64,000 nt of DNA from Ornithinimicrobium sp. F0845 (GTDB taxonomy: Bacteria > Actinomycetota > Actinomycetes > Actinomycetales > Dermatophilaceae), in assembly GCF_023015765.1 (NCBI RefSeq), contig NZ_JALKAL010000008.1, positions 74,857 to 138,856 on the forward strand, written 5' to 3'. Position 1 is the stretch's first letter, and each line of letters starts with the position of its first letter. The position numbers and the translations under genes are program-made. Below the pieces are notes generated by a model. That model was not told the DNA's origin. It made no database searches and saw only the letters and a program-made list of their open reading frames with translations. Positions 8,049-11,963 of the stretch are shown piece after piece.

Positions 8049-11000
8049 ATGACCGACCCCGCCCGGCGACAGGCTGCCCGGGCGCTGGAGGGTGCGCGCC
8101 GTCGGACCGACGGCCCGACGCACGGTGCGTCTGGCGGGACGCACTCCGGGGGTGCCGCTCTGCTGGCTCTGCAGCGCCGGGCGGGCAATGCCGCCGTCTC
8201 CGCGCTGCTGACCGGGAAGGGACGGGCCGAGGGTGCGCCGGCCGAGCGGATGGAAGAAGCCCTGGGTCAGCTGCGCCGTGAGGATCCAGCGATCGACGTG
8301 GTCGAGACCGGGCTCAAGGAGGCCAAGGCGGCCGGAGTGCCGGTGGACCTGGAGGGCACGCCGCCTCCCGCGGCGGCGCTTGCGGTCACGCTGACCGGGT
8401 TCGGCCCGGGGTCGGTGGCTCCCAAGAAGGCCCCGCTGCCGCCCAAGAGCGTCCCGAAGGTGCCCGCTCTGGGGAAGGCGGCCAAGGGTGCCGGCGCGGC
8501 AGCCAAGGGCAAGGGCGGTGCCGCAGCCGCCAAGGGCAAGGGCGGTGCTGAGGCCAAGGGCAAGGTCTCCGGTGGCGGACCCGGCCCGGTCCCCAAGGGC
8601 GGCGCCGGTGCTCCCGCCGGGCCGACCGCCAGTCCCGCGGCGGGCCTGGCTCCGGATCAGGTGACGCAGCCGCCGGTGCCGCCTCCCGGCATACTGCCCG
8701 GGCAGGACCCAGCCTTCACGGCGGTGACGGGCGGGCTCTCCGGTGCCGCTGCCACGGCGCGCGCCCACGGGCCGGCGGCCGCGAAGGCGAAGGAGGCGCA
8801 GGCTGCGGCGATGCCTCCGGCGGGCGGGCTGGCCGCGCAGGCCGAGGCGGCCAAGGTCGATGAGATGGATGCCCAGCAGCCGGGGGCCTTCGACAAGAAG
8901 GCGTTCATCACGGCGGTGAAGGCGGCCATCGAGGCGAAGTCGCCGAAGACGCTGGAGGAGGCGGACGAGTACCGGGAGTCAGGCAAGGCCGGTGACGTCA
9001 AGGGCGACGTCGCAGGGCTGGTGACGCAGGGCAAGGGGGAGCAGACCAAGGACATCGCGACCGCGACCGAGGCGCCGCCGGACCAGTCCAGGGCCGTGGC
9101 CAAGGAGGTCGTGCCGATGGGTGGGGAGCCCGTCGGTCAGGTCCCGTCCGTCCCGGCCGGGGGAGCGGTGCCCAAGCCGGCGCCGCCGGAGCAGACCAAC
9201 CTGCAGGCCGGCAAGCACCAGGCGGAGGCCGAGCTGGCGGGGGCCGACGTCACCGAGGAGCAGCTGGAGCGGTCCAACGAGCCGGACTTCCAGCAGGCCG
9301 TGGCGGACAAGCGGGAGGCCGCCGAGCACGCCGACACCGCACCCGGGGAGTTCCGTCAGCAGGAGCAACAGGTCATCGAGCAGGACCGGGCCGGGGCCAC
9401 GGCGGGGGTGACGGAGGCGGTGGCCGGGATGCAGGGGACCCGCGCCGGCGCGATCGCCGGACTGGTGGCGGACAAGGCCGCGACGAAGGAGGAGGACGAG
9501 GGCAAGCGGGGCGAGGTCGCCGGCAAGATCGACGCCATCTACGTCGCTGCGGAGCAGGACGTCAAGGCCATCCTGGACGGCATCGACCCCAAGGTGGAGA
9601 AGGCGTTCGGCGACGGGGAGGCCGCGGCCCGCGCGGCGTTCGAGTCCTACGTGGACGCCAAGATGTCCGCCTACAAGAGGGACCGGTACGGCGGGTGGCT
9701 CGGCGGCCTGAAGTGGGCCAAGGACAAGCTGCTCGGGATGCCCTCGAAGGTGAACGAGTTCTACGAGGCCGGCCGCGAGCTCTACCTGAAGAAGATGGAC
9801 GGGGTGATCTCGCGGGTCGCCGACATCGTCGGCGGGGACCTGACCCGGGCCAAGAAGCGGATCGCGGCGGGGAGAGCTGAGATCACGGCATACGTGAAGA
9901 ACCTGCCCGCGGACCTGCGCAAGACCGGCGCGAAGGCGGCCCAGGAGATCGGTGACCGGTTCGCCTCGCTGGAGGGGGAGGTTACGGCCAAGCAGGAGGC
10001 AGCGGTCGACATGCTGGCCAGCAAGTATGTCGAGTCGCGTAAGGCCCTCGACTCCCGGATCGAGGAGCTGCAGGCGGCCAACAAGGGCCTGGTCGACAAG
10101 GCGATCGGCGCCATCAAGGGCGTCATCAACACCATCCGCGAGCTCGCGGCGATGCTGGAGAACGTGCTCTCGCGGGTGGCGGGCGTGGTCGGCAAGATCA
10201 TCAAGGACCCGATCGGCTTCCTGGGCAACCTCATCGCCGGGGTCAAGGGCGGGATCCTGAAGTTCCGGGACAACATCCTGGAGCACCTGCGCAAGGGGCT
10301 GATGGGGTGGCTGTTCGGGGCGCTCGCCGAGGGTGGCGTCGAGCTGCCAGAGAGCTTCGACCTCAAGGGCATCGTCAAGCTGCTGGCCTCGCTGTTCGGT
10401 CTGACGTGGCGGACCATCCGGGACCGGATCCTCAAGCGCGTCGGGGCCAGGGCGATGGGCGCGATCGAGCGGGGTGTGGAGATCTTCCAGGTGCTGGCCA
10501 GCCAGGGGCTCGGCGGCCTGTGGGAGATGCTGCTGGAGAAGCTGGGCAACATCAAGGACATGATCCTGGAGCAGGTCCAGGAGTTCGTGGTCGTCAAGAT
10601 CATCAAGGCGGGCATCACCTGGCTGATCGGCCTGCTCAACCCCGCGGCGGCCTTCATCAAGGCGTGCAAGATGATCTACGACATCGTGATGTTCTTCGTC
10701 GCGAACGCGGCCCGGATCGGGCGTTTCGTCAACACCGTGATCGACTCGGTCGCCGACATCGTCCGCGGCAACGTCAGCGGCGTGGTGGACAAGATCAACA
10801 ACGTGCTCGGCCAGATGTTGCCGCTCATCATCGGCTTCCTGGCCAGCGCCATCGGCCTCGGCGGCATCGGCAAGAAAATCCGAGAGATCGTCAACTCTCT
10901 CCAGAAGCCGTTCCTCAAGGCCGTCGACTTCGTGATCGACAAGGGGCTGAAGCTGGCCGGGCCGTTGATCCGGGGGCTGAAGGCCTTGGGAGGCAGGGCC

Positions 11001-11963
11001 AAGGCCGGGGCCAAGCGGGCCTTCGGGCGGGCGAAGAGTGCCTTCGGGTTCCGCGAGAAGACACCGGAGGAGGTTGCCAAGGACAAGCGGGAGCGTCTGG
11101 ACAAAGGGATGGCCGCTGGGGTCGCTGCGGTCAATCGCTTCGCACGTAAGCCTGTGGGCAAGAGCCTGCTCGCGCCGTTGCTCTCGGCCATCAGGATCCG
11201 CTACCGCATGAAGAGTTTGGAGCCGGTTCTCACCGGGAGGACATGGAGCGTCGCCGGCACGGTGAACCCGTCCGAGACCAGGGGCACGAAGGCGATAGGT
11301 GAGGACAGCATCGCGGAGGCGAAGAAGCACCTCGGGGAACGCTACCTGGTCAAGGCTACGAACCGTGTCGGGCAAGTCACCAGCGTGCTCGAGGACCATG
11401 GTTTCGTCGTCCTGACCTACGACCGCCAGCGGACCATCGGGGGAACCAGCCAGACCATGGAAGGTCGACCGTCGTTCCCGGTGGGGACGTTCCTGGAGAA
11501 TGTCAAGAACAACGGACCCGCGCTGGTGAAGGCTGAGGGAGGTGCTGGGCAGACGGCATACACCCTCGACGGACGGACGCTTCGAGAGCAGTATCACCGG
11601 GTCCGGGCGATGTTCTACAAGGGCGACTACCAGAAGCACCTTGAGGGGAAGTTGAGCGCCGTCACGTCCATGAGTCCCCCCGGAATGTTCTTGTGCCCAG
11701 GCTATGGGCGCGAACCCCACCTGGCGCCCATCGCGTCCGCGTCGCTTGATCATCGTGATTCTGTGGCTTTGCACTGGAACACCACGGGGCGGAGTTCGAA
11801 CCAGGCGGAACGTTCCCGCTTCTGGACCGACGAGACAAACCTTCAGGTGCTGTGTGGAGGGTGCAACTCCAGGAAGGGTTCACGTGGCCCGGACGGTAAG
11901 AAGGCCAATTACATGAAGGAGGTCGAGATCCCCGGATTTAGTGGTCCCGACGGCAAGGAGTAG
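8049..11963 (+). CDS. Probable eCIS payload: large protein with N-terminal LQRxAGN motif and C-terminal HNH nuclease
   Basis: About 1304 aa, transcribed divergently from the sheath operon. Residues 41-52 read LQRRAGNAAVSA, a motif repeated in the DUF4157 protein at 13815-14549 and known from the N-terminal region of many eCIS-linked proteins. Residues about 60-430 are Ala/Gly/Pro/Lys-rich and disordered. Residues about 430-1080 are helical, with a hydrophobic amphipathic block at about 855-935 (for example TWLIGLLNPAAAFIK, LIIGFLASAIGLGG). A junction near residue 1100 precedes the last about 90 residues, a HNH-type nuclease: LDHRDSVALHWN, then FWTDETNLQVLCGGCNSRKG. Architecture and context suggest a toxin loaded in or on the particle; delivery is inference. 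No small immunity-like gene follows. Neither ATG 8049 nor ATG 8031 has a good Shine-Dalgarno, so the start is uncertain; an open frame extends to 7920. Confidence 0.75.
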   Translation: MTDPARRQAARALEGARRRTDGPTHGASGGTHSGGAALLALQRRAGNAAVSALLTGKGRAEGAPAERMEEALGQLRREDPAIDVVETGLKEAKAAGVPVDLEGTPPPAAALAVTLTGFGPGSVAPKKAPLPPKSVPKVPALGKAAKGAGAAAKGKGGAAAAKGKGGAEAKGKVSGGGPGPVPKGGAGAPAGPTASPAAGLAPDQVTQPPVPPPGILPGQDPAFTAVTGGLSGAAATARAHGPAAAKAKEAQAAAMPPAGGLAAQAEAAKVDEMDAQQPGAFDKKAFITAVKAAIEAKSPKTLEEADEYRESGKAGDVKGDVAGLVTQGKGEQTKDIATATEAPPDQSRAVAKEVVPMGGEPVGQVPSVPAGGAVPKPAPPEQTNLQAGKHQAEAELAGADVTEEQLERSNEPDFQQAVADKREAAEHADTAPGEFRQQEQQVIEQDRAGATAGVTEAVAGMQGTRAGAIAGLVADKAATKEEDEGKRGEVAGKIDAIYVAAEQDVKAILDGIDPKVEKAFGDGEAAARAAFESYVDAKMSAYKRDRYGGWLGGLKWAKDKLLGMPSKVNEFYEAGRELYLKKMDGVISRVADIVGGDLTRAKKRIAAGRAEITAYVKNLPADLRKTGAKAAQEIGDRFASLEGEVTAKQEAAVDMLASKYVESRKALDSRIEELQAANKGLVDKAIGAIKGVINTIRELAAMLENVLSRVAGVVGKIIKDPIGFLGNLIAGVKGGILKFRDNILEHLRKGLMGWLFGALAEGGVELPESFDLKGIVKLLASLFGLTWRTIRDRILKRVGARAMGAIERGVEIFQVLASQGLGGLWEMLLEKLGNIKDMILEQVQEFVVVKIIKAGITWLIGLLNPAAAFIKACKMIYDIVMFFVANAARIGRFVNTVIDSVADIVRGNVSGVVDKINNVLGQMLPLIIGFLASAIGLGGIGKKIREIVNSLQKPFLKAVDFVIDKGLKLAGPLIRGLKALGGRAKAGAKRAFGRAKSAFGFREKTPEEVAKDKRERLDKGMAAGVAAVNRFARKPVGKSLLAPLLSAIRIRYRMKSLEPVLTGRTWSVAGTVNPSETRGTKAIGEDSIAEAKKHLGERYLVKATNRVGQVTSVLEDHGFVVLTYDRQRTIGGTSQTMEGRPSFPVGTFLENVKNNGPALVKAEGGAGQTAYTLDGRTLREQYHRVRAMFYKGDYQKHLEGKLSAVTSMSPPGMFLCPGYGREPHLAPIASASLDHRDSVALHWNTTGRSSNQAERSRFWTDETNLQVLCGGCNSRKGSRGPDGKKANYMKEVEIPGFSGPDGKE

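Follow-up and report, generated by a model that had tools for sequence, protein, structure and literature searches.

A candidate cargo of an actinobacterial contractile injection system carries a short N-terminal tag shared with many dissimilar proteins

Introduction

How a contractile injection system (CIS) chooses its cargo is an open question, and it is raised in a concrete form by a locus of Ornithinimicrobium sp. F0845. The 64,000-nucleotide stretch analyzed here (contig NZ_JALKAL010000008.1, positions 74,857 to 138,856; hereafter the window) is part of a CIS locus whose sheath and tube genes run opposite to a gene encoding a candidate cargo of 1,304 residues, P0001 (8049-11963, plus strand), and it also encodes a small protein with the DUF4157/eCIS_core domain (13815-14549, minus strand). 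A sequence-only reading of this DNA had proposed that P0001 is a nuclease delivered by an extracellular CIS (eCIS) and that the two proteins share a short segment serving as a packaging or targeting tag. What does this segment do, and what kind of protein is P0001? Based on sequence profiles, comparative genomics, and the literature, we propose that P0001 is probably a modular cargo of an actinobacterial CIS, of the recently published Sle1 type, which would be recruited by a lineage-specific tag, ejected, and turned against nucleic acid through its HNH-like end.

Results

The shared segment reads LQRRAGNAAV near the N terminus of P0001, with the general form LQRxAGNxAV. As the sequence-only reading had it, P0001 is divergent from the sheath operon and carries the motif LQRRAGNAAVSA close to its start (residues 41-52; 8169-8204, plus strand), where it was recovered by sequence, by regular expression, and with a profile E value of 7.5e-9, this copy being itself a row of the profile. 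The same motif indeed stands in the DUF4157 protein as LQRLAGNAGVSA (residues 48-59; 14373-14408, minus strand; sequence and regular expression), and its L, Q, R, G, N, and V are invariant across five DUF4157 orthologues. In a low-confidence structure model of this protein (mean predicted local distance difference test [pLDDT] score of 53.6), the tag lies within a predicted helix spanning residues 42-63. The idea that the tag forms an amphipathic helix was tried and rejected, its helical moment not exceeding that of shuffled sequences (0.197 versus 0.218). No published report of this tag or of its letters was found, in a literature coverage lacking many journals and all bioRxiv preprints.

A loose tag pattern, fixed before any reading of these loci, matched 24 times in 14 of the 16 loci encoding homologs of the P0001 body and 13 times in 9 of 24 other DUF4157 loci; 20 control stretches, each of 20 kb (400 kb in all) and from genomes of the same set, contained no match. 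A strict pattern gave 15 matches in 10 body loci, 5 in 5 other DUF4157 loci, and none in the controls. The shared segment is far above chance. From the pattern matches, 41 segments were picked to build a profile, in which columns left free by the pattern are also biased: A or G occupies column 24 (after GNx) in 40 of the 41 rows, V, L, or M column 29 in 37, and L column 13 in 26.

The profile was searched over 394 genomes of the class, 62 with a sheath match and 332 with none; only the top candidates per genome were scored in the class-wide searches, and all resulting counts are therefore lower bounds. At an E value of ≤1e-4, the tag occurs in 32 of the 394 genomes, namely 31 of the 62 sheath-bearing and 1 of the 332 sheath-less ones, an enrichment of the motif with eCIS loci that agrees with what the sequence-only reading had expected. 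When matches inside the training loci are excluded, 41 matches in 19 genomes remain, 18 of these genomes having a sheath. Counting only matches separated from a strong DUF4157 match by a contig boundary or by more than 20 kb leaves 26 in 13 genomes, 12 with a sheath (Fisher 1e-9), and of the 10 tagged genomes that contributed no training locus, 9 have a sheath. Moreover, the tag follows one sheath lineage. With the near lineage defined by a sheath match of 500 bits or more, the tag is found at E ≤ 1e-4 in 30 of 37 near genomes, 1 of 25 far genomes, and 1 of 332 without a sheath; at E ≤ 1e-3, the numbers become 33, 2, and 3. For the 31 genomes of the genus, every candidate was scored, and the tag is present at E ≤ 1e-3 in 4, precisely the ones whose sheath identity is at least 93%. 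Since three of these four genomes supplied profile rows, the telling part is that the remaining 27 lack the tag, many of them having sheath-like matches at lower identity.

The tag is not restricted to two proteins of one locus, as had been thought. A census at 20 bits or more, covering the fetched stretches (window, L024-L030, L076-L115, L166-L205, and L226-L241), recovered 96 nonidentical tagged open reading frames (ORFs), which BLAST sorts into 45 groups dissimilar from one another apart from the tag (grouping criterion, 55 bits over 50 residues or more). The two large groups are 29 DUF4157 proteins and 20 body proteins, and the other 43 groups have one to three members. The tag lies at a median of 51 residues past the first possible start codon, and 81% of the tagged ORFs have it within the leading third of their stop-to-stop frame. 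Many of these ORFs are far from the CIS locus, and several genomes have four to nine profile matches each. Tagged proteins without the body carry domains as different as pretoxin HINT (L092), VanY (L171), GT4-conflict (L181), Scabin-like (L186), SH3_3 (L194), and Het-C together with eCIS_core (L019), with Endonuclea_NS_2 found below cut-off in L027 and L188. The source genome itself has three more matches on other contigs (C12, E 1.4e-6; C9, E 8.3e-6; C23, E 1.2e-4); the C12 and C9 proteins show HExxH-like segments by eye, and the C23 frame has only 83 codons. In the close relative G006, with a sheath 94% identical, a tagged protein of 454 residues with no body match sits between the DUF4157 and sheath genes. 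Thus, the proposal of a packaging or targeting tag holds as far as tag-like behavior goes: the segment is linked to CIS, borne by dissimilar groups, and tied to one sheath lineage; packaging or targeting itself would be a further step. One tagged family was also seen in three genomes (L166, L024:9187-10839, and L076:11499-12311), its genes being next to the CIS locus in some cases and elsewhere in others, with one member weakly DUF922-like.

Beyond the tag and a low-complexity stretch, P0001 consists of a tape-measure-like helical body and a variable C terminus. The sequence-only reading had described a long disordered and helical body; it is helical, but residues about 430-1000 (9336-11048, plus strand) form rather a conserved module, as indicated by a multiple alignment (A2), PHROG families, and phage records. 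In this alignment, the module is 69 to 84% identical to five actinobacterial relatives and 47% identical to a shorter Roseiflexus piece, and identity across relatives reaches 89% (L027). Body matches occur in 16 of the 394 genomes, 15 strong and one weak (E 6.9e-4), and all 15 genomes with a strong match have both DUF4157 and sheath matches. The body bears a remote similarity to phage tape measure proteins: residues 400-1104 match the PHROG tape-measure families 1535 (E 5.2e-7), 58 (E 1.6e-6), and 1272 (E 2.8e-4), and the 6 of 50,697 phage records that match the body are every one annotated as tape measure protein (20% identity, E 1e-3 to 4e-3). By Kyte-Doolittle values only, three hydrophobic 19-mers start at residues 846, 867, and 919 (span 846-937); they may or may not correspond to the transmembrane hairpin of the Sle1 type.

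DUF4157 (PF13699) is absent from P0001 in a Pfam scan. A small DUF4157 gene adjoins the body gene in L024, L026, L027, L028, and L076 and lies within 3 kb of it in L079. In Oscillatoria (L244) and genome G229 (L088), DUF4157 and the body are fused in a single chain, which links P0001 and the DUF4157 protein functionally. A rule by which the tag would occur only where DUF4157 is separate was discarded: the fusions L088 and L244 are without the tag, yet DUF4157 proteins carry it. Plasmid-borne body proteins were found in Streptomyces, Deinococcus, Aureibacter, rhizobia, Paraburkholderia, and Oscillatoria (35 records). Some body proteins stand away from CIS genes: the L025 and L077 stretches show no sheath match, the L083 protein lies ~340 kb from the nearest sheath match of its genome, and no CIS gene is annotated around those of L206 and L208, the former being annotated as a DddA-like deaminase toxin.

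The C terminus is exchanged between relatives. Among 24 aligned body proteins, two of them fragments, several unlike types were assigned by eye and Pfam, with ten C termini scanned. The HNH-like type is found in the window protein and in L082 (genome G405). AID/APOBEC-like deaminase ends are found in L025 (E 4.5e-6) and, below cut-off, in L076 (E 3.7e-5) and L078 (E 1.2e-3), and further types among the scanned proteins are without family assignment. L027, whose body and sheath are 89% and 97% identical to those of the window, has a different C terminus with an EHVIPRGF stretch (L027 and G023 are apparently the same contig and count as one case); by eye, L024 and L079 have this type as well.

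The C-terminal HNH nuclease called by the sequence-only reading is upheld by its signature letters but not by a family score above threshold. On about residues 1210-1284 (11676-11900, plus strand), PF01844 gives E 0.015 and 15.9 bits versus a cut-off of 21.4, and a PHROG HNH family gives E 0.097. The window and L082 C termini are homologous in pairwise comparison (33% over 99 residues, E 8e-13) and have in common the His/Asn/Cys signature LDH...HWN...NL..C..CNS.K; L082 scores E 0.002 with PF01844, likewise below cut-off. L077 retains LDH and HFN without the cysteines of the signature. Compared with 58 related genomes, the last 205 residues matched only themselves and, weakly, the end of another body protein in G055 (E 8.7e-4). 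No relatives of the HNH part were found in viral contigs, plasmids, or PDB sequences, the PDB giving only TPR-repeat matches outside it. A single-sequence AlphaFold2 model of the C terminus has a mean pLDDT of 40 and gives no usable view of a beta-beta-alpha metal fold.

The surrounding genes are those of a CIS. On the minus strand lie genes for the sheath (6248-7807; PF04984, E 2.3e-22; PF17482, E 1.8e-19), a gp19-like tube protein (5754-6197; PF06841, E 3.8e-30), a tail assembly chaperone-like protein (5284-5757; PHROG 508, E 5e-6), a long protein of low complexity where a phage would have its tape measure (1631-5125), and a tube-associated protein (386-1477; PF19266 CIS_tube, E 8.9e-26). 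Outside the window, to the left, the operon goes on to encode a VgrG-like hub (Phage_GPD, Phage_base_V) together with gp25 and baseplate J. The P0001 frame is open over 1,304 codons; the start at 8049 is favored over 7920 because the aligned frame in the relative L027 has only ~14 codons upstream. The next gene after the cargo, convergent with it and lying between cargo and partner, encodes a zinc-ribbon-like plus immunoglobulin-like protein by Pfam (12034-13803, minus strand; zinc ribbon below cut-off), followed by the 244-residue DUF4157 protein, the Sle2-like partner (PF13699, E 2.9e-34). A homolog of 12034-13803 (62%) adjoins DUF4157 in L237 (genome G013), and no counterpart was seen between cargo and partner in L027. 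Farther on, an AAA+ ATPase with a winged-helix domain (23275-26154, minus strand; PF00004, E 9.9e-23; PF22977, E 5.7e-25) is a possible loader.

Other genes near these loci were noted. A second zinc-ribbon-like start, as in 12034-13803, occurs at 29082-31325 (plus strand). An HSP70-like gene (21302-23275, minus strand) adjoins the AAA+ gene, and in L087 the body protein is followed by an ORF whose start is similar. Past the left-hand limit of the CIS operon, L242 encodes a protein combining lysozyme-like, NlpC/P60, and TSP3-repeat parts (L242:10180-12288) and a BTAD-type regulator (L242:12285-15179), possibly with roles in release and control.

Discussion

We propose that the LQRxAGNxAV tag is a lineage-specific docking signal, which would recruit to the particle P0001 and many proteins encoded elsewhere, and which would be read most likely via the small DUF4157 protein, the AAA+ ATPase, or both. 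The tape-measure-like body would fill the lumen of the tube, be ejected upon contraction, and insert into a membrane, and the HNH-like domain would then attack nucleic acid. A bolder version, which we put forward tentatively and consider doubtful as a whole, is that in one CIS lineage of Actinobacteria LQRxAGNxAV is a sequence-encoded address read by a DUF4157 adaptor, gathering dissimilar effectors from the whole genome into one particle, with the 1631-5125-type protein as a luminal scaffold made from the same short recognition unit and the former tape measure fold moved into the cargo.

Several points weigh against the proposal that P0001 is a tag-recruited cargo. Computation shows the distribution of the tag, the exchange of C termini, the resemblance to tape measures, and the layout of the locus, whereas loading into the particle, the receptor of the tag, ejection, the nuclease function, and the target are inferred. 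The profile rows came from loci chosen for DUF4157 or the body, by a pattern demanding G-N, so that the invariance of these two letters in the rows is by construction. The genomes are related and no correction was made for kinship, so that Fisher values overstate independence, and many are drafts, so that "far" from DUF4157 can mean another contig. The 45 groups are perhaps oversplit, as the singleton L190 has a DUF4157 domain and L179 an HExxH. Of the 40 tagged proteins put through Pfam, 26 gave no match at E ≤ 0.01 and several of the remaining 14 proteins gave weak matches only, and the HNH assignment itself is weak, missing the Pfam cut-off. The distribution of the tag has exceptions on both sides. 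G073 has a tagged gene (L194, the SH3_3 protein; E 2.5e-5) and a weaker neighbor (16.9 bits) with no sheath or DUF4157 match, a related gene (L193) sitting in a CIS-bearing genome. Conversely, the near-sheath genomes G149, G239, G299, and G329 have no tag at E ≤ 1e-3, the class body proteins L086 and L088 (a DUF4157 fusion) have none by regular expression or profile, and it is absent from four plasmid-borne body proteins of other phyla.

Against whom would such a cargo be directed? The sequence-only reading had noted that no immunity-like gene follows P0001, and this stands: there is no same-strand coding-like ORF within 1.8 kb downstream, with a filter that could miss a small AT-rich gene. 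That reading took the absence to fit eukaryotic targets or programmed self-death rather than attack on kin, which may or may not be so. In eight relatives (L026, L028, L078-L081, L089, and L091), the next same-strand coding-like ORF is the sheath gene. Most verified CIS-associated toxins are likewise described as lacking an identifiable immunity gene (Geller et al. 2021, PMC8213781, in the part of that work considered here). By analogy with Streptomyces CIS, the target is likely the producing cell or its lineage, the Streptomyces coelicolor CIS acting, according to the portion of PMC12237407 at hand, inside its producer and requiring CisA. The principal alternative, that P0001 is an antibacterial weapon sent against kin or neighbors in released particles, its immunity gene being unrecognized or distant, seems unlikely to us in view of these downstream findings and of the lack of any tail-fibre family among ten ORFs scanned in the left flank and at the window edge, a scan that was not exhaustive. 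It has precedents nonetheless: in Streptomyces clavuligerus, a small DUF6301 gene begins ~30 bp past the gene of a plasmid-borne body protein (L208), and a Micromonospora relative of Sle1 type is a toxin with an immunity gene (PMC13277306, accessible part). An unrecognized immunity gene for P0001 is possible.

A second short signal suggests another function for the tag, namely, a processing site at or near [LIVM]QR, cut in assembly or after firing by the HExxH-bearing DUF4157 protein or another protease, with the DUF4157 protein, the cargo, and the protein in tape-measure position as substrates. The DUF4157 proteins do hold both HExxH and the tag. [LIVM]QR is enriched in the window DUF4157 protein (4 observed, 0.15 expected, 0 of 500 shuffles) and in 1631-5125 (8 copies, 0.33 expected, 0 of 500 shuffles), and it occurs once in P0001, within the tag. 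At each of the 15 loci examined, the enrichment recurs in an ORF that follows the chaperone gene, none of 300 shuffles reaching the observed count; 13 loci have 8 to 13 copies, the truncated L237 stretch has 4, and L108 has 3. [LIVM]QR lies in the 80 residues past the tag in 37 of 95 tagged ORFs versus 12 of 229 control windows. We nevertheless regard processing as improbable, because the preferences of the tag reach beyond QR, at the pattern-free columns 24, 29, and 13, and because growth inhibition by one DUF4157 toxin was independent of its metalloprotease motif (PMC11297309, in the part considered). In 1631-5125, the signal is often P-[LIV]-QR, and this protein also has four PLTG segments, three of them PLTGxADPL.

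Still less probable is that the tag is a mere relic: fusion events would have carried an N-terminal module from DUF4157 proteins onto other chains, where it plays no part in loading. No tagged group is larger than that of the DUF4157 proteins (29 of the 96 ORFs) and tags are mostly N terminal, as this would have it, but the tag is maintained in 45 groups, and the body relatives L078 and L081 keep it though window residues 51-200 are unalignable or missing there (0 to 4% identity per 50-residue block). Finally, chance or compositional similarity can be practically dismissed: alanine-rich letters are common in GC-rich genomes, and the three sheath-less genomes matching at E ≤ 1e-3 include one with a stop in frame, but 400 kb of control DNA gave no match and 332 sheath-less genomes only one at E ≤ 1e-4.

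If P0001 is indeed a tag-recruited cargo, the tag would offer a testable interface with DUF4157, a widespread CIS marker of unknown role. Should the tag predict cargo far from the locus, effector repertoires could be listed from sequence alone in many actinobacteria.

The closest published system is the Sle1/Sle2 cargo pair of a phage tail-like particle of Streptomyces lividans, published in May 2026 (PMC13277306, compared here through the available part of its text), in which Sle1 is packaged and has an N-terminal part to which the DUF4157 protein Sle2 binds. P0001 resembles Sle1 as a cargo without DUF4157, with a small DUF4157 partner nearby, located beside the sheath gene, with a helical tape-measure-like part and a C terminus exchanged between relatives, and one relative of Sle1 type is presumed to act on nucleic acids. 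The layout differs in the HNH-like C terminus found here and in the gene at 12034-13803 that separates cargo and partner. Altogether, P0001 fits the Sle1 type, by its published description rather than by the Sle1 sequence.

Other systems share single features with P0001, again according to the parts of the cited works that were available. Tme of Streptomyces davawensis (PMC11126660) likewise joins a tape-measure-like body to a nuclease C terminus in a Streptomyces CIS, but in Tme DUF4157 is part of the chain itself, and the nuclease is of the EndA type, its degradation of DNA having been demonstrated. In the DUF4157-fused CIS-associated toxins of Geller et al. (PMC8213781), one chain holds both parts, whereas the cargo and DUF4157 of the window are separate; the P0001 body itself occurs in fused form in L244 and L088, as in those toxins. 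The signal peptides of PVC and Afp cargos resemble the tag as N-terminal segments within about the first 50 to 100 residues (PMC11495950, PMC11297309). These signals are described as disordered, as rarely showing sequence homology, and as sortable into groups by alignment (PMC11495950), and no specific conserved sequence was detected in them according to the portion of PMC11297309 considered, whereas here one short sequence spans 45 groups. No sequence tag is named for the Sle1 type in the available part of PMC13277306, and one is evident here. Thus, P0001 is a new member of a published type, and what is new is the tag, its specificity for one sheath lineage, and its spread over dispersed and dissimilar proteins.

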